64,000 nt of DNA, taken from contig NZ_AUMA01000008.1 of NCBI RefSeq assembly GCF_000422565.1, positions 124,001-188,000 on the forward strand. Reading direction: 5' to 3'. Position numbers and translations under genes: made by a program. This document shows positions 14,137 to 53,844 of the stretch, piece after piece. Origin of the DNA: Desulfovibrio aminophilus DSM 12254. GTDB taxonomy: Bacteria; Desulfobacterota; Desulfovibrionia; Desulfovibrionales; Desulfovibrionaceae. The notes under the pieces were generated by a model. The model saw only the letters and a program-made list of their open reading frames with translations. It was not told where the DNA came from and made no database searches. Position 1 is the stretch's first letter; every line of letters begins with the position of its first letter.

Positions 14137-14212
<76 letters not shown>

Positions 14213-44422: not shown

Positions 44423-45181
44423 ATGGACAACGCGCGCCGGGCGTTCTGCATCGTGGTTTTGGCCCTGTTTTGTTGTTCCTGTGGTGGGCGTTCCCCGGGC
44501 GGCGGAAAGGCCGTCACGCCCGTGGCCTCCTCGGACCAGTGTCTGCTGGTGCTGGCGGAGGATTGGGATTCCACCCAAGGGACGCTGTCGCTCTTCGAGC
44601 GTTCCTGGACCGGGAGCTGGAAAGCCGTCGGTCCGGGGGTTCCTGTGTTCCTGGGGCGCAAGGGGCTGGGGTGGGGCCGGGGCCTGCACCCGGAACAGAC
44701 CGAGGGGCCGCGCAAGGCCGAGGGGGACGGCCGGGCCCCGGCGGGCATCTTCACTTTGGACTCGGCCTTCGGCCGGGCTCCGCTCGCGCCGCAGCTCAAG
44801 ACCTTTCCCTTCCTCGTGGTGAACGGGCAGACGATCTGCGTGGACGACGGCGTGTCCTCCCGCTACAACACGGTATTCCAGGCCGATCAGGTCCCGGTGA
44901 GGAACTGGGACAGCTGCGAAAACATGCTGCGTTCCGACGCCCGCTACGACCTGGGTTTGCTGGTGGGCCACAATCCACCCCCGGTCGTGCCCGGGGGCGG
45001 CTCGTGTATCTTCATGCACCTGTTTTCGGAGCCTCCGCTGCCCACCTCCGGCTGCACGTCCATGGCGCGGCCCGACATGGAACGCCTGCTGCGCCGCCTC
45101 GACACGGTCAAGCGGCCGGTCTTGGTGCAACTGCCCCGGGCCGAGTACGGCCGGCTCAAGACGGTCTGGGGACTGCCCTAG
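44423..45181 (+). CDS. exported L,D-transpeptidase family protein (YkuD-type)
   Basis: A 252-residue exported protein. The leader (RRAFCIVVLALFCCSCGG) is a signal peptide, perhaps of lipoprotein type, although the residues before Cys20 are not a standard lipobox. The catalytic region has VGHNPPP, CIFMHLF (His199) and PTSGCTSM (Cys211), the His...SxGC pattern of YkuD-fold L,D-transpeptidases that cross-link peptidoglycan or attach proteins to it. GRAPAGIFTLDSAFG is the usual earlier motif. GGGAGG six bases before the ATG at 44423 decides the start over the ATG at 44417. Confidence 0.88.
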   Translation: MDNARRAFCIVVLALFCCSCGGRSPGGGKAVTPVASSDQCLLVLAEDWDSTQGTLSLFERSWTGSWKAVGPGVPVFLGRKGLGWGRGLHPEQTEGPRKAEGDGRAPAGIFTLDSAFGRAPLAPQLKTFPFLVVNGQTICVDDGVSSRYNTVFQADQVPVRNWDSCENMLRSDARYDLGLLVGHNPPPVVPGGGSCIFMHLFSEPPLPTSGCTSMARPDMERLLRRLDTVKRPVLVQLPRAEYGRLKTVWGLP

Positions 45182-45600
45182 CCGAGCCCGCGCTGCGGCT
45201 CGGACGTCTTCCTCTTCCCCTTGGGGCATACGCGGGGCGGCGCATGTCCGCTCGCCTGACCCGCCGATCCGGCGAGGTTGTTTGCCGGCTCCTGCTTGAG
45301 GCGCGAACGGCATCGCTTTGTTCGATGATGCATTTCGCAAACATGGACCCGCGCCCCAGCCGGGTCGGGATGTTTCGCGCGCCAAACCCCATCCAAGATA
45401 TATTCATTCAATAAAACAGGACTCCTGGATGAGATGCTCCAACGCGGAGCGCGATCCCTGTTGACATGAATACTGTTTTGGTTCATTTTGAATTCAAGTT
45501 GAATCAAAATTGAATTCCGATCAACTCGCTCGGCGCGAGATGAGCCTGGAAAACTACGGACACCATGTCGCCCGGGCCGATTCCGAGAGGGGGAGAGAGC
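45182..45600. other. 419-base intergenic region with AT-rich regulatory segment
   Basis: The first 200 bases show no gene or clear terminator. From about 45400 the DNA becomes AT-rich. A perfect TTGACA (45461-45466) is followed after 17 bases by CATTTT (45484-45489), a weak -10, and then by the TTGAAT repeat array at 45488-45517. The transcript would start near 45496, inside the repeats, about 105 bases before the CyuA-type start. Confidence 0.5.
45488..45517 (+). repeat. three TTGAAT repeats at exact 11-bp spacing (putative operator)
   Basis: TTGAAT begins at 45488, 45499 and 45510. The first lies in the perfect palindrome TTGAATTCAA (45488-45497). Spacing of one helical turn puts all copies on the same DNA face, and they overlap the expected transcription start of the CyuA-RidA-TRAP operon. 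The natural candidate binder is the GntR regulator encoded at the operon end (50469-51092). Confidence 0.6.
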
Positions 45601-46884
45601 GTGGATTCCGAGAAATTGTTGCGCATCATTCGGGGTGAACTGGTCGAGACCACCGGATGCACCGATCCCGGGGCCATTGTCCTGGCGGTGGCCGTGGCCG
45701 CCCAGGCCTTGGGGCGGACCCCGGGCGATGTCGAGGTCGTGCTCAGTCCCGAAGTCTACAAGAACGCGGTGAGCGTCGGCATCCCCGGCACGGGCCGTCG
45801 CGGAGCCGAACAGGCCGCGGCCTTGGGCGTCGAGATGGCCGAGTACGCCGACGATGGGCTGGCCATTATGAACCGCGTGACTCCGGAAAAAGTGGCCGCT
45901 TCCCTGACGCACCTGGAACAGGGAGGTGTGCGCGTGGGCTACGCGGGAGACTGCCCGGACAAACTCTACATTCAGGCCCGTGTGCGCGCCGGGGCGGAGG
46001 AGGCCCTGGCCGTGATTCAGGGCGACTACGACGCCGTGTCGCGGTTGGAAAGAAATGGCCGGGAATTGCCCCTGACGAGGGTTGTTTCGGCGGCGCCTGA
46101 AACGCTTGCCGAGACCTTCGACATCGAGGAGGCGTTGGACGCCCTTGAATGCATCCCGTTGGACGAACTGGAGTTTCTGCTGCGCGCCGCGGAGATGAAC
46201 AAGGCCGCCGCCTCCGATCTGAAAGATTTGCGTTTCGGCGGGGCCCTGGCGAGGATGACCGAGGGACTCGCGGGACGCCACGCCTGCGCGGCGCTCGGCA
46301 AGCTGTACACCGGGGCCGCCGTGGAGGCCCGCATGTGTGGGCTGGTGCGTCCCATCACGGCCATCGCCGGCAGCGGCAACATCGGCATCATCGCCCTGTT
46401 GGGGGTGTTGGGCGCGGGCGAGGGCCTGGAGGCCTCCCGCGAGGAACTGATCCGGGCGCTGGCCGTGAGCACCGTGGTGACCATCACGGTGAAACGCATC
46501 CTGACCCGTATGACCAATGTCTGCGGCTGCACCGTGGCCGGAGCCTCGGGCGTGGCGGCCGGCACGGTCTCCCTGCTGGGAGGAAGCCGGGTGAGGATGG
46601 ACGAGGCCATCCAGGCCGTGCTCGGGGCCTTCAGCGGCGTGGTCTGCGACGGGGCCAAGGAATCCTGCGCCTACAAGGCCTCGGCCACGGCGGGCAGCGC
46701 CATTGAGTATGCCTTTTTCGCCGTGGGCGACGGAGTGGCCATCCCCCAGGGCATGGGCGTGGTGGGCTCGACCCTGGCCCAGACCTTGGCCAACCTCGGC
46801 AAACTCAACGAGCAGGGTATGCGCGAGGTGGGCTCGTGCATCCTGGAGATCATCAGGACGAATCAGAAGGAGAGAAGGCCATGA
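45601..46884 (+). CDS. L-cysteine desulfidase / CyuA (UPF0597) family Fe-S enzyme
   Basis: A 427-residue protein of the CyuA/YhaM family, related to the alpha part of iron-sulfur serine dehydratases. ETTGCTDPGAIVLA (Cys20), MTNVCGCTVAGASG (Cys308, Cys310), GVVCDGAKESC (Cys349, Cys356) and GSGNIGI are the expected conserved blocks; three of these Cys should bind an oxygen-sensitive [4Fe-4S] cluster. The reaction is removal of sulfide from L-cysteine giving 2-aminoacrylate, then pyruvate and ammonia. The start is the GTG at 45601 with GGGGGAG in front, rather than the ATG at 45565. ridA overlaps the stop (ATGA), and a TRAP transporter follows. Confidence 0.9.
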   Translation: MDSEKLLRIIRGELVETTGCTDPGAIVLAVAVAAQALGRTPGDVEVVLSPEVYKNAVSVGIPGTGRRGAEQAAALGVEMAEYADDGLAIMNRVTPEKVAASLTHLEQGGVRVGYAGDCPDKLYIQARVRAGAEEALAVIQGDYDAVSRLERNGRELPLTRVVSAAPETLAETFDIEEALDALECIPLDELEFLLRAAEMNKAAASDLKDLRFGGALARMTEGLAGRHACAALGKLYTGAAVEARMCGLVRPITAIAGSGNIGIIALLGVLGAGEGLEASREELIRALAVSTVVTITVKRILTRMTNVCGCTVAGASGVAAGTVSLLGGSRVRMDEAIQAVLGAFSGVVCDGAKESCAYKASATAGSAIEYAFFAVGDGVAIPQGMGVVGSTLAQTLANLGKLNEQGMREVGSCILEIIRTNQKERRP

Positions 46885-47261
46885 GGAGAATCATCTTCAC
46901 GGACAAGGCCCCCGGCCCCGTGGGGCCGTATTCCCAGGCCGTGCGCCATGGCGGGCTGGTGTTCGCCTCGGGGCAGGTGGCCATCGACCCGGTGAACGGC
47001 GAGGTCGTCTACGGCGGGGTGGCGGAGCAGACCGAACTGGCCCTGGAGAATCTGCGCGCGGTGCTGGAAGCGGCGGGCAGCGGCCTGGACCGAATTCTCA
47101 AGTGCAACGTCTACCTGGCCGACATCGGGGATTTCGAGGCCATGAACGAGGTCTACAAACGATATTTCACCAAGGACTATCCTGCCCGGCTTACCGTGGC
47201 CGTGGGCAGCATGTTCGGTGGGCTCGCGGTGGAGATGGACGCCATAGCGGCGGTGGAATAG
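46881..47261 (+). CDS. ridA: RidA-family enamine/imine deaminase
   Basis: A 126-residue YjgF/YER057c/UK114 protein. GPVGPYSQAVRHGGLVFASGQ, LENLRAVLEAAGSGLDRILK and FTKDYPARLTVAVG show the family folds, including the Arg that orients the imine. RidA speeds hydrolysis of 2-aminoacrylate and related imines to pyruvate and ammonia, protecting PLP enzymes. Its start overlaps the stop of the CyuA-type gene, so the enzyme and the scavenger of its reactive product are made together. This is strong context support for a 2-aminoacrylate-forming reaction. Confidence 0.94.
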   Translation: MRRIIFTDKAPGPVGPYSQAVRHGGLVFASGQVAIDPVNGEVVYGGVAEQTELALENLRAVLEAAGSGLDRILKCNVYLADIGDFEAMNEVYKRYFTKDYPARLTVAVGSMFGGLAVEMDAIAAVE

Positions 47262-47300
47262 GTGTCGACAGCAACCGGTCATCAGAAGAGGGAGGAAACG

Positions 47301-48311
47301 ATGCGCGCGAAATTGATTCTGCTGGGTGTCACGGCCCTGATGCTGGCCTTCCTGGCCGGCACGCCCCGCGGCTTTGCCGCGGAACAGAAGTACGATCTCA
47401 AGCTGGCGCAGCTCTTCGCCACGGACAGCGACCTGGGCAAGTCCGCACGCCAGTTCGCCGCCCTGGTCAAGGAGAAGTCCGGCGGGCGGATCTCGGTCAG
47501 CGTGTTCGACGGGGGGCAGTTGGGCGGCCAGAAGGAAGTTTACGACGCCCTGCTGCGCGGGGTCGTGGACTTCAACATGGACTGGCCCATGACCTCTTAC
47601 AACCAGAAGCTGGCGGTGGTCTTCGCCCCTTACATGTTCACCTCCTGGGAGCAGGCCAAGGCGGCCTACGCCGTGCCCGACGGCTGGCTGACCAAGATCG
47701 TGGGCAAGGTCTTCGAGGAATCCAAGATCAAGTACCTCGGGCCCTACCCCTATGAGTTCAGCGGCGTGACCCTGAACGCGGCTCCGGCCACCAACGCCGA
47801 CATGGCCAAGGGCATCAAGGTCCGCGTGCCTCCCATCGAGCCCTTCATGTCCGTGTGGGAGGCCCTGGGCTTCATTCCCACGCCCATCGACTACGCCGAG
47901 ACGCCCACGGCCATTCAGACCGGTGTGGTGGACGGCCAGGTGGGCGGCGGCCCCGAACAGGCCTGGAGCGACTTCCGCGACGTGTCCAAGTACTACATCC
48001 ATTACAAGGATTACTTCTCCTGCGCCCAGTTCATGATGAACCAGGACCTCTGGAACCGCATGTCTCCCTCCGACCGGGAGATCATCGTCCAGGCCGCCGC
48101 CAAGGTCATCGCCGATCGTTTCGTGCAGGCCGAGGCTTCGGAGCGCCGCTACATCGAGGAGTTGGGCAAGGCCAAGGTCCAGGTGATCCAGCTCTCCCCC
48201 GAGGACGCGGCCCGGGCCAAGAAGCTCGTGCGCGAGAAGGTCTGGCCCAAGCTGGCCAAGCTGGTGGGCGAGGACATCATCACGGAGATCAAGGCCAACG
48301 CCGAGAAGTAG
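47301..48311 (+). CDS. TRAP transporter substrate-binding protein (DctP family)
   Basis: A 336-residue periplasmic binding protein. The signal peptide runs to about GFAA-EQ. The mature protein has DLGKSARQFAALVKEKSGGRI, GQLGGQKEVYDALLRG, KGIKVRVPPIEPFMSVW (Arg of the carboxylate clamp) and TGVVDGQVGGGPEQAW. TRAP P-proteins bind carboxylates, including amino acids, through that Arg. GGGAGGAAACG precedes the ATG. It lies between ridA and the small and large membrane subunits, so the system is complete. The likely ligand is an amino acid that is cleaved by the CyuA-type enzyme. Confidence 0.95.
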   Translation: MRAKLILLGVTALMLAFLAGTPRGFAAEQKYDLKLAQLFATDSDLGKSARQFAALVKEKSGGRISVSVFDGGQLGGQKEVYDALLRGVVDFNMDWPMTSYNQKLAVVFAPYMFTSWEQAKAAYAVPDGWLTKIVGKVFEESKIKYLGPYPYEFSGVTLNAAPATNADMAKGIKVRVPPIEPFMSVWEALGFIPTPIDYAETPTAIQTGVVDGQVGGGPEQAWSDFRDVSKYYIHYKDYFSCAQFMMNQDLWNRMSPSDREIIVQAAAKVIADRFVQAEASERRYIEELGKAKVQVIQLSPEDAARAKKLVREKVWPKLAKLVGEDIITEIKANAEK

Positions 48312-48407
48312 ACCACGAACGGCCGACGTTTACGGCCCGGCGCGTCGGCGCGTCGGGCCGCTCCGGCCCTTTCGGGGACGGCGGGGCGAGTGGAGGAGGA
48401 AGAGCGC

Positions 48408-48947
48408 ATGAACAGGACAATCGCAATGCTGGCGACCTTGGAAAAGGGGCTCGCCCTGGCCCAGCGGGTGGTGCTGGTCGTCTCGGTGGGGCTCATCGCC
48501 GTGCTCATCGTGGCGCAGATATTCCTGAGAGTGGTGCTGAAGAGCCCGCTGTTCGGAGTCGAGGAGATCGCCCTCATCGCCGGGACGTGGCTCTACCTCA
48601 TCGGGGCGGCCTACTGCACCCGGGAACACAGCCACATCGAGGCCAGCATGGTGCACCTGATCTTCAAGAGGCCGCTGCACCAGGAATTGGTCCGCTGTCT
48701 GGCCAGCGCCGTCAGCATGACCCTGGCCTCGGTCATGGCCAAATGGGGCTATGACTTCGTGCGCTGGGGGCTGGAGCACAAGTCCGTCACCCCGTCGCTG
48801 GGCCTGAACTACCTCGTGGCGCAGAGCGCCCTGTTCGTCGGCGCCCTTCTCATGACCCTGTATTTCGGACTGGAACTTGTCGCGCGCGTGCGCAACGTGG
48901 CGACCCTGGCCGCCGGGAAGAACGGCCCGGCTCGGAGGGAGGCATGA
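48408..48947 (+). CDS. TRAP transporter small permease (DctQ family)
   Basis: A 179-residue protein with four membrane helices: VVLVVSVGLIAVLIVAQIFL, VEEIALIAGTWLYLIGAAY with the conserved acidic/Gly pattern (EExA...W), TREHSHIEASM, and a last helix before a basic tail. It is the accessory membrane subunit that binds DctM. GGAGGAGGAAGAGCGC lies before the ATG at 48408. Its stop overlaps the dctM start (ATGA). Confidence 0.93.
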   Translation: MNRTIAMLATLEKGLALAQRVVLVVSVGLIAVLIVAQIFLRVVLKSPLFGVEEIALIAGTWLYLIGAAYCTREHSHIEASMVHLIFKRPLHQELVRCLASAVSMTLASVMAKWGYDFVRWGLEHKSVTPSLGLNYLVAQSALFVGALLMTLYFGLELVARVRNVATLAAGKNGPARREA

Positions 48948-50248
48948 TCGGGCTTCTGACCGCCCTGGGCATCATCGTGGTTCTCTTGGTCATCGGCGTG
49001 CCCATCGGTTTCGCCTTCGCCGGGGCCGTCCTGTTCCTCACCGCGTACTTCCAGCTGGACCCGGGCCTGCTGTTGCCCAGCGCCTTCTTCCAGACCTATT
49101 CCGTGGTTCTGCTCTCCCTGCCCATGTTCATCTTCGCCGGGCGGATCATGGGCGAGGGCGGCATCGCCACCCCGCTCATCAATTTGGCCGAGACTCTGGT
49201 GGGCCGGGTGCGCGGCGGCCTGGGCATCGTGCTCGTGTTCAGCTGCGCCCTCTTCGGGGCCATCTCCGGTACGGCCTCCTCGGCCGTGGCCGCCATCGGC
49301 ACGGTGATGATCCCGCGCATGGAGGAGGCCGGCTATCCCCGGGGCTACACCACCGGGCTCATCAGTTGTTCCTCGCTGCTGGGCCAGCTCATTCCGCCCA
49401 GCGTGCCCATGATCCTCTTCGCCTGGATCACGCGCCAGTCCATCGCGGCCTGCTTCCTGTCCACCGTGGGCCCCGGACTCCTCATGATCGTCCTCTACGC
49501 CTTCCTGAACTGGCTCATGTGCCGCCGCATCCCCACCATCAAGGTGGGACCGAGGCTGGGGCTGGCCGATTCCCTGCGCGAAACCGGCCGGGCCACGCGC
49601 CATGCCAGCTTCGCCCTGATGATGCCCGTCCTCATCCTGGGCGGCATCTACGGCGGTTTGTTCACCCCCACGGAGGCGGCCTCCGTGGCCGCGCTCTACG
49701 GCATCCCCGTGGGGTTCTGGATCTACAAGGGGCTCACCCTGAAGAAGCTCTGGCAGACCACCATCGACTCGGCCGCCACCATCGGGGCCATCGTCATCAT
49801 GTTCCTGTTCATCCTGGTGGCCAGCCGCGTGTTCACCATGCAGCAGGTGCCCCAGATGATCGTCGACGCCCTGCTGAACATCTCCGAGAACAAGATCGTC
49901 ATCCTCATGATGGCCAACGTCTTCCTGATCATCGTGGGCATGCTCATGGACGACATCAGCGGCACGCTCATCGCCGCGCCGCTGCTCATGCCCCTCATGC
50001 TCAAGATCGGTGTGCATCCGGTGCAGTTCGCTGCCATCGTGGGAACCAACCTGGCCATCGGCGCGAACACCCCGCCCACGGCCCCCATCCTCTACTTGGC
50101 GGGCCGCATCGGAGGCGTGACCATCGAGGAGTTCATCAAGCCGGTGGCCGTGCTTCTGCTCTTCGGCTCCCTGCCCGTGGCCTTGGCCACCACCTACTGG
50201 CCGGACCTCTCCCTGTTCCTGCCCCGGCTGATGGGGTACGTGCATTAA
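48944..50248 (+). CDS. TRAP transporter large permease (DctM family)
   Basis: A 434-residue protein with about 12 helices of the ion-transporter fold. LLSLPMFIFAGRIMGEGGIA, GTASSAVAAIGTVMIPRM, SLLGQLIPPSVPMILFAWI and NLAIGANTPPTAPIL are the two sets of hairpin motifs that bind Na+ and pass substrate. It couples uptake to the sodium gradient. Start overlaps the DctQ-type stop. It ends the transporter set; a GntR gene follows 220 bases later. Confidence 0.96.
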   Translation: MIGLLTALGIIVVLLVIGVPIGFAFAGAVLFLTAYFQLDPGLLLPSAFFQTYSVVLLSLPMFIFAGRIMGEGGIATPLINLAETLVGRVRGGLGIVLVFSCALFGAISGTASSAVAAIGTVMIPRMEEAGYPRGYTTGLISCSSLLGQLIPPSVPMILFAWITRQSIAACFLSTVGPGLLMIVLYAFLNWLMCRRIPTIKVGPRLGLADSLRETGRATRHASFALMMPVLILGGIYGGLFTPTEAASVAALYGIPVGFWIYKGLTLKKLWQTTIDSAATIGAIVIMFLFILVASRVFTMQQVPQMIVDALLNISENKIVILMMANVFLIIVGMLMDDISGTLIAAPLLMPLMLKIGVHPVQFAAIVGTNLAIGANTPPTAPILYLAGRIGGVTIEEFIKPVAVLLLFGSLPVALATTYWPDLSLFLPRLMGYVH

Positions 50249-50468
50249 TGGGCCTTCGCCCGACCCTGGCGGTGGAATCCGGGTTTTGTCCCGGGTTCCG
50301 CCGCGCCTCTTCCCTCCGGGTGGAGCCGCCGGGCCTGGGCCGGTGGCGCGGCCTCCACGGCGCGTTGAGTTCTCCCGATCGCCGTGGTATGGCGCGCTAT
50401 CTCAATTCCTGTATCCAAACGGCGTCGCCGGTTCTTCGGGCCGAGCGCAGAAGGAGCGGCATCCTTTC

Positions 50469-51092
50469 ATGACACCCCGCCAAGTCGCCGAGCAGCTCAA
50501 GCAGAAGATCATCATGCTCGAACTGCCCCCCGAGACGATCCTCAACATCAGTGAACTCGCCCTGCAGCATGGCGTCAGCCGCACGCCCGTGAAGGAGGCG
50601 CTCATCGTGCTGCAGGCCGAGGAGTGGGTCCAGCGGCACGGGTCGCATTTCATGGTCACCCCCTTGAGCCTGGAGCGCATCAAGCAGATCACCGAGATAC
50701 GCTCCATCCTGGAGGTGGAGTCCAACCTCCTGGCCCTGCGGCGCATGGACGAGGCGACGCGCCGTTCCTTCGACAGCCTTCGGGTGCGCATCAATGGCCT
50801 GGACTCCTCGGCCACCAACCTGGACATCGTCAACGCGGACCTGGCGCTGCATCGCCGTCTGTACACGGCCACCCGGAACACGCAGCTCACCAAGGTGCTG
50901 GACCATCTGCTGAGCCATTATCTGCGCTTTTGGCTGTCCCTGCCGCAGCGGATCGAGCTGGATTCGTTCTTCGACGACACCCTGGGGATGATCGCCGCGG
51001 TGGTGAACAACGACGAGAAGGCCCTGCGGGAACTCTCCGAACACCACGTCGCCCGTTCCGCGGACTTCATCGTGCGGATATTCCTGGCGTAG
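50469..51092 (+). CDS. GntR family transcriptional regulator (FCD-type)
   Basis: A 207-residue regulator. The N-terminal winged helix is divergent but clear: LELPPETILNISELALQHGVS, then RTPVKEALIVLQAEEWV. The C-terminal helical domain has RSILEVESNLLALRRM and ADLALHRRLYTATRN (the D...H metal/ligand positions), ending LSEHHVARS. It probably controls the CyuA-RidA-TRAP operon through the TTGAAT repeats; it lies downstream and in the same direction. It is only distantly related to the other FCD regulator at 28.1 kb. A terminator follows. Confidence 0.88.
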   Translation: MTPRQVAEQLKQKIIMLELPPETILNISELALQHGVSRTPVKEALIVLQAEEWVQRHGSHFMVTPLSLERIKQITEIRSILEVESNLLALRRMDEATRRSFDSLRVRINGLDSSATNLDIVNADLALHRRLYTATRNTQLTKVLDHLLSHYLRFWLSLPQRIELDSFFDDTLGMIAAVVNNDEKALRELSEHHVARSADFIVRIFLA

Positions 51093-51173
51093 GCCGACCG
51101 CCGGGTGTCGGGAAGGCGGAGCCCCAAGGCCCGCGATCCGGGGATGCGGCGCGGCGTTCTTTCTCCAAGGCGG

Positions 51174-51204
51174 GCCTTGCGGGTGAAACCGCAAGGCTTT
51201 TTTC
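51174..51204 (+). terminator. rho-independent terminator after the second GntR gene
   Basis: A perfect 9-bp stem (51174-51182 with 51189-51197), six-base loop, followed by TTTTTTCG. Confidence 0.92.
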
Positions 51205-51350: not shown

Positions 51351-51776
51351 ATGCTCTGGCTTCATCCCATCTTTCAGACCCTGGCCCTGCTGCTCTCCGT
51401 CTTCGTCCTCCTGCTCGGCTGGACCCGTTTCGCGGCCGTTCATCTGGGACGGGCCGGGCAGTTCCAGTGGAAGCGGCATGTGACGTTGGGAGCCCTCGTG
51501 CTGTTCACTTGGCTGGGCGGATTCTTTGCCGGGTTGGGTGTCGCCTGGCTCAAGTGGCAGGCCGTGTTTTTCACCGGCACACACCATCGTTTGGCCCTGG
51601 CCATGTTGCCGCTCATTCTGTTCGGGCTCATCTCCGGCCTGATCATGGACCGGAGCAGAAAAAAGCGACGCTGGCTGCCGCTGGTCCACGGCTTGAACAA
51701 CGCCCTGCTGGTGCCGGCCGGGTGCATCCAGTTGGCCTCCGGCCTGCTTGTCCTGCTCGACTACGTCTTGCCCTGA
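51351..51776 (+). CDS. four-helix membrane protein, DUF4079 / cytochrome b561-like
   Basis: A 141-residue protein with four membrane helices (LHPIFQTLALLLSVFVLLLG, VTLGALVLFTWLGGFFAGLG, HRLALAMLPLILFGLISGLI, and a last one near 120-138). Conserved-looking His residues (His5 in LHP, KRHVTLG, GTHHRLA, LVHGLNN) suggest a heme-binding bundle like the DUF4079 or b561 group. A role in membrane electron transfer is possible but not shown. The start was placed at 51351, where the first helix begins, with AAAAGGAA upstream. Confidence 0.7.
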   Translation: MLWLHPIFQTLALLLSVFVLLLGWTRFAAVHLGRAGQFQWKRHVTLGALVLFTWLGGFFAGLGVAWLKWQAVFFTGTHHRLALAMLPLILFGLISGLIMDRSRKKRRWLPLVHGLNNALLVPAGCIQLASGLLVLLDYVLP

Positions 51777-53768: not shown

Positions 53769-53844
53769 TGGTGGAGACGATCGGGATTGAACCGACGACC
53801 TATGCGTTGCGAACGCATCGCTCTCCCAGCTGAGCTACGTCCCC
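53769..53844 (-). tRNA. tRNA-Ala (anticodon CGC)
   Basis: A complete 76-base tRNA on the minus strand. Acceptor GGGGACG pairs with CGTCTCC, the D arm is GCTCAGCTGGGAGAGC, anticodon stem ATGCG/CGCAT holds loop TTCGCAA with anticodon CGC, and the T arm is GTCGG-TTCAATC-CCGAT. The CCA end is encoded. It reads the GCG alanine codon. Confidence 0.96.

Follow-up and report, generated by a model that had tools for sequence, protein, structure and literature searches.

What compound is taken up and degraded by the six-gene operon that occupies positions 45565-51092 of a 64,000-nucleotide stretch of Desulfovibrio aminophilus DSM 12254 DNA (the whole stretch analysed is called the window below)? The genes, all read in one direction, encode a CyuA-like [4Fe-4S] enzyme, RidA, the DctP, DctQ and DctM subunits of a tripartite ATP-independent periplasmic (TRAP) transporter, and a GntR/FCD regulator. 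A first-pass annotation, made from the sequence alone, had described them as a set for uptake and breakdown, and the gene content and order are as it claimed: all six genes are on the plus strand, and their families score over the cut-offs. Its wider interpretation, with a TRAP carrier feeding an enzyme that forms an enamine and RidA removing the enamine, is also supported, and we consider it probable that the operon serves to import a single amino acid and to degrade it by beta-elimination. That the substrate is an amino acid is well supported, being backed independently by the neighbours of a DctP subgroup and by amino-acid carriers beside sister enzymes; that it is cysteine is not well supported, and here the first reading was at its weakest. 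Most likely the substrate is not L-cysteine but another amino acid, or else is one that a remodelled active site deals with; the candidates are serine, an amino acid with a beta substituent (3-hydroxyaspartate, for example) and cysteine itself.

The enzyme matches SDH_alpha (PF03313) at 127 bits against a cut-off of 26.4, and is 31% identical over its full length to E. coli CyuA. Its AlphaFold2 (AF2) model superposes over 383 residues on structure 9he0 of MmCyuA (Z 43.6, 2.7 A, 22% identity), compared with Z 23.6 for the L-serine dehydratase 4rqo; MmCyuA is the Methanococcus maripaludis enzyme, solved as PDB 9fsl, 9fyi, 9he0 and 9he2 (PMC12647591). In the alignment, the three cysteine ligands of the [4Fe-4S] cluster are kept (MmCyuA Cys287, Cys329 and Cys336, here Cys320, Cys361 and Cys368), as are the equivalents of MmCyuA Cys23 (here Cys32), Arg223, Asn239 and Lys339. 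These numbers refer to the 439-residue frame from 45565; translation probably starts at GTG 45601 rather than at ATG 45565, because a GGGGGAG ribosome-binding site precedes the GTG, the relative in genome G014 starts there, and residues 1-10 of the model are disordered. The Cys23/Glu25 dyad by which a CyuA is recognized is incomplete, Asp34 standing in the place of the catalytic glutamate. In MmCyuA, Glu25 is the proposed base that abstracts the alpha proton, the E25D variant is inactive (Gervason et al., PMC12647591), and a few CyuA genomes carry aspartate at this position (PMC12647591). The release of sulfide is unproven here, because aspartate replaces the catalytic Glu25 and this very replacement inactivates MmCyuA.

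Is Asp34 peculiar to this one enzyme? A scan of genome contigs with the single window sequence gave no relatives, and a query built from a three-row alignment retrieved them: proteins sharing the motif S/TTGCTDPG were found genome-wide in Bacillota, Spirochaetota, Chloroflexota and Desulfovibrionaceae. We then built a tree from 77 proteins without the Asp/Glu column (a quick tree, its root not inferred). On one side of a branch with SH-aLRT 99 lay 17 GCTD proteins from four phyla, and on the other were the 57 GCTE proteins without exception, including E. coli CyuA; the window enzyme does not group with characterised CyuA. The Glu-to-Asp change is fixed in the GCTD branch, and so is a change of His to Tyr: Tyr155 is present in 17/17 branch members, against 0/57 of the others, every one of which has His. 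Met316 stands where the 57 others have Leu, and Thr30, Ala266 and Ile267 are further marks of the branch. Three proteins (L060, L063 and L081) have Asp at the catalytic position yet are placed among the GCTE rows, outside the branch, and in these the Asp looks convergent.

The proposal that the enzyme is CyuA-type in the sense of a cysteine desulfidase is thus not supported, since it belongs to a branch separate from E. coli CyuA and carries at the position of Glu25 the residue that inactivates MmCyuA. Whether the GCTD branch forms an enzyme class of its own in the CyuA fold is, in our view, an evenly balanced question. Its members would be [4Fe-4S] beta-eliminating lyases that act on an amino acid different from L-cysteine, have RidA as their partner and draw on carriers that can replace one another; the carrier here would be a TRAP system with a DctP from an amino-acid-binding subgroup with a re-built pocket. 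The branch provides a natural test of the mechanism proposed for CyuA, in that both the Glu-to-Asp change that kills MmCyuA and the change of His to Tyr are fixed in 17/17 members. Either the substrate has changed or, in the right setting, aspartate can serve as the base. Databases may over-call cysteine desulfidase for these proteins.

The company kept by sister enzymes bears on the nature of the substrate. The window RidA scores 145.9 bits against TIGR00004 (curated cut-off 106.25) and 130 bits against PF01042, holds the PAR arginine motif and VEMDAIA, and is one of four RidA-family genes in the genome. In three lineages (the window's genus, four Bacillota of one group, and Limiplasma) RidA is the next gene after the GCTD-branch enzyme, so that the pair recurs more widely than the six-gene order; adjacency in three of about eight lineages would have a chance of about 1e-6, a rough estimate that assumes some 3,300 genes. 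The carriers beside branch members are more varied, comprising NSS/SNF (L067, L068, L076), SSF (L070), BrnQ (L077) and TctABC (L032/L074, L079) types as well as the DctPQM-type TRAP system here. The NSS and BrnQ families are amino-acid carriers. Amidohydrolases adjoin the enzyme in L070, L072, L075 and L077, and lyases of the adenylosuccinate/argininosuccinate type in L069 and L079, and the lyases hint that a conjugate may be the source of the amino acid in the last two hosts. In two loci, L079:192-7363 (GCTD) and L035:3153-11364 (GCTE), the CyuA-family enzyme is grouped with MmgE/PrpD, with adenylosuccinate-lyase/XcbD-like lyases and with a TTT transporter, a gene content suggestive of a pathway in which a succino- or sulfo-conjugated amino acid is processed. 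The S-(2-succino)cysteine route that these lyases brought to mind was set aside: the published pathway has N-acetylated intermediates and other genes, and the window operon is without such a lyase. An apparent CyuA-RidA fusion at L080:5344-7494 (a 716-residue frame) proved an artefact, two masked runs of N joining two genes in frame.

The transporter supplies an argument of its own. All three subunits are present (DctP, PF03480, 158 bits; DctQ, PF04290, 76 bits; DctM, PF06808, 297 bits, and TIGR00786, 335 bits), each over its family cut-off. Canonical TRAP binding proteins contact the carboxylate through Arg152, Arg173 and Asn213, in the numbering of 4P47 (PMC11668362), a trio complete in 5/5 solved relatives that we aligned. 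The window DctP has Ser155, Arg175 and Gly215, and so keeps only the middle residue; no solved structure belongs to the subgroup with this changed pocket. A search of 395 genomes in the phylum gave no relative of DctP at E <= 1e-60, and the closest found, in two groups on Pseudomonadota plasmids, are 24-37% identical. Loci whose DctP lacks the first Arg and the Asn adjoin amino-acid-catabolic genes in 11 of 13 cases, against one of six for canonical pockets (Fisher p 0.01, the classing having been done after the fact). The neighbours in the former group are FAD (flavin adenine dinucleotide) oxidases resembling pipecolate oxidase or D-amino acid dehydrogenase, hydroxyproline-pathway enzymes, proline racemase with aspartase, and beta-hydroxyaspartate enzymes, and four of these loci have RidA; the six canonical ones have shikimate dehydrogenase, fumarylacetoacetate hydrolase or RraA-type neighbours, one with taurine-type genes. 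The subgroup would therefore argue for an amino-acid ligand independently of the enzyme, and its signature gives a testable sequence rule by which TRAP carriers of amino acids could be told from those of plain carboxylates. In Phaeobacter gallaeciensis plasmid pP75_g (L158:2055-10885), TRAP genes stand with ridA, an FAD oxidase, ridA, bhcB and bhcC, and this TRAP system is likely to be an importer of beta-hydroxyaspartate or a related amino acid.

From these features we infer how the enzyme works, which way transport runs, how the operon is regulated and what kind of substrate it serves, as follows. After capture by DctP in the periplasm, the amino acid would be brought inward by DctQM, presumably with sodium. 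The beta-substituent of the substrate would bind the open iron of the [4Fe-4S] cluster of the CyuA-like enzyme, Asp34 would abstract the alpha proton, and the beta group would be expelled, to give 2-aminoacrylate or a substituted enamine. RidA would hydrolyse this, giving ammonia together with pyruvate or the matching 2-oxo acid, before pyridoxal phosphate enzymes could be damaged by it. The regulator (GntR, PF00392, 50.9 bits, and FCD, PF07729, 53.4 bits, both over cut-off; its ATG at 50469 is preceded by GAAGGAG) probably senses the substrate or the product.

Several points weigh against the uptake and beta-elimination of an amino acid as set out here. The change of Glu to Asp abolishes MmCyuA activity, so that the enzyme could be slow or act otherwise, and for the whole branch the proposed activity is drawn from sequence and model. 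The pairing of the enzyme with a DctPQM-type TRAP system is known from two species in a single genus. The count of DctP neighbours covers 19 loci classed by hand from annotation and includes near-duplicates (L155/L157, L136/L137, L160/L161/L164), and all the counted loci are on Pseudomonadota plasmids, at 24-37% identity. Folding of the single DctP sequence reached a predicted local distance difference test (pLDDT) score of 37, which gave no usable pocket model.

How well do narrower or different accounts survive? In one, which we hold to be possible but doubtful, the operon is for TRAP-fed fermentation of L-cysteine, the enzyme being a true cysteine desulfidase in spite of Asp34 and yielding sulfide, pyruvate and ammonia. 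The full-length similarity to E. coli CyuA would be in keeping with this, as would the retention of all cluster and anion-site residues and the aspartate found in a few CyuA genomes (PMC12647591); moreover, the enzymes of L079, the deepest branch member, and L035, a canonical one, adjoin lyases of the adenylosuccinate-lyase type that resemble XcbD, a cysteine-adduct enzyme. It has to contend, however, with the inactivity of MmCyuA E25D, with the separation of the branch from E. coli CyuA and its own Tyr155, and with the rest of the genome: contig C23 (L034:10297-12876) has a canonical GCTE CyuA with a Trp_Tyr_perm/HAAAP-type permease 9 bp downstream, and because a canonical enzyme thus lies beside an amino-acid permease, the window operon need not serve cysteine. 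Compared with E. coli CyuP, the C23 permease gives no alignment (E 0.05), and we have not given it that name; an ABC ATPase precedes the CyuA gene there.

We are just as tentative about a substrate that is an acidic or otherwise modified beta-substituted amino acid (3-hydroxyaspartate or cysteate, for example), the shorter Asp34 making room for an extra group and the anionic side chain suiting TRAP and TTT carriers. The fixation of both active-site changes in the branch would fit, as would the TTT carriers of two branch members and the changed-pocket DctP relative in the beta-hydroxyaspartate cluster of L158. But that relative is 32% identical, which is insufficient to fix a ligand, and the NSS, SSF and BrnQ carriers beside the Clostridia sister enzymes fit neutral amino acids. 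An isethionate-like or phosphate-like mode of DctP binding is disfavoured, the sulfonate contacts of IseP (Arg156 and Asn217) not being kept.

Somewhat less probable still is an operon for the uptake and dehydration of serine (L or D), with the architecture of cysteine fermentation and water as the leaving group. RidA is the classic partner of serine/threonine dehydratases, as in the E. coli tdcF/tdcG neighbourhood. That partnership favours serine, as do the catalytic domain common to the enzyme family and the [4Fe-4S] L-serine dehydratases, and the NSS and BrnQ carriers of sister enzymes, which suit small neutral amino acids; on the other hand, a higher-scoring SDH_alpha protein is already encoded elsewhere in the genome (C6, 232.6 bits), and serine is a competitive inhibitor of MmCyuA and no substrate (PMC12647591). 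Least probable, and indeed improbable, is a TRAP carrier for some unrelated carboxylate, with genes that merely adjoin those of the enzyme pair, for although the confinement of the six-gene order to one genus and the want of a close DctP relative in the phylum might mark them as a recent addition, the short same-strand gaps, single regulator and close conservation in both species speak against it, as does the recurrence of RidA with TRAP genes beside canonical CyuA (L036, L118) and of RidA beside related DctPs.

Returning to amino-acid import and beta-elimination, the layout of the operon (Table 1) is of some help. The enzyme-gene stop and ridA start overlap as ATGA (46881-46884), because of which the translational coupling suggested for these two genes is plausible as stated; dctQ and dctM overlap in the same way (48944-48947). 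The complete operon also occurs in a second species of the genus (G002), with conservation of 95-99% (enzyme 95%, DctP 99% identity), and the nearly identical block starts at about 45455, DNA upstream of it having diverged. That block holds a palindrome that we infer to be a candidate operator/promoter; the promoter scan found nothing above chance level. At the other end, a stem could terminate the transcript, its strength being the sole support, since the pattern scan found three terminator-type sites against 3.3 expected by chance.

Table 1. Features of the operon and its borders in the window
Feature	Position	Strand	Basis
CyuA-like [4Fe-4S] enzyme, GCTD branch of CyuA/SDH_alpha family	45565..46884	+	PF03313, AF2 model against MmCyuA 9he0, motif table, tree, branch-specific residues
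RidA enamine/imine deaminase	46881..47261	+	TIGR00004, PF01042
DctP, TRAP solute-binding protein, non-canonical subgroup	47301..48311	+	PF03480, alignments
DctQ, TRAP small membrane subunit	48408..48947	+	PF04290
DctM, TRAP large membrane subunit	48944..50248	+	TIGR00786, PF06808
GntR-type regulator with FCD ligand domain	50469..51092	+	PF00392, PF07729
Candidate operator/promoter, 34-nt imperfect palindrome (GTTGACATGAATACTG...ATTCCGATCAAC), upstream of operon	45460..45525	.	Repeat search, 74% complementary
Candidate intrinsic terminator, 11-bp stem then T run; would end operon	51172..51199	+	Pattern scan

Directly upstream of the operon (44423-45181) is a gene for a YkuD-like L,D-transpeptidase, with a borderline Pfam score (23.3 bits, cut-off 23.4), and immediately 3' (51351-51776) one for a small membrane protein with sub-threshold DUF4079/DUF420 matches. 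Two tRNA-Ala genes lie in the window, at 53769-53844 (minus strand) and 14137-14212 (plus strand), with anticodons cgc and ggc.

How, then, does the operon stand in relation to known systems? In E. coli cyuPA, the importer CyuP and the cysteine desulfidase CyuA are found with CyuR (PMC9040844). The two operons share an enzyme family and fold, the joining of transporter and enzyme genes, and pyruvate as an expected product, but here the carrier is a TRAP system, ridA lies inside the operon, the regulator is of the GntR/FCD type, and the enzyme is from the other branch, with Asp for the catalytic Glu. MmCyuA resembles the window enzyme in fold and in the cluster and active-site residues listed above, and differs in its low identity, in having Glu25 for Asp34, and in that carrier, RidA and regulator are encoded alongside the enzyme here. 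The Bacillota GCTD loci L067, L068 and L078 are alike in enzyme branch and in RidA directly downstream, but differ in carrier, an NSS/SNF symporter in the two that were scanned (L067 and L068), and in having a PocR-sensor histidine kinase and an AraC-type response regulator. The Rhodobacterales DctPQM operons L141, L155, L157 and L158 share a DctP without the first Arg and the Asn, and RidA beside the TRAP genes, but their amino-acid catabolism is oxidative, by FAD enzymes in place of a [4Fe-4S] lyase.

The exact six-gene order was found, among the loci examined, solely within the genus, though TRAP-linked branch members outside the phylum may be missed; conservation of gene order, the lack of which the first-pass annotation took as a ground for refutation, is complete in the second species. 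Nor is a TRAP carrier, which it took for a different solution from CyuP, unique to this operon among neighbourhoods of CyuA homologues. Two other genera (G029/L036 and G339/L118) have a CyuA-family enzyme, RidA and a TRAP carrier side by side, but the enzyme is of the canonical GCTE type, the TRAP permease is fused, the binding protein is NMT1-like (TAXI), and a YheO-type regulator or a DHDPS-family gene is nearby; in the family of the second of these genera, TAXI or fused DctM genes lie near CyuA in L119, L121 and L123. Our literature search found no paper joining cysteine desulfidase with TRAP or RidA. The exchange of carriers beside CyuA-family enzymes is therefore a recurrent theme, apparently undescribed, of which the window operon is one version, with an unusual branch of the enzyme.

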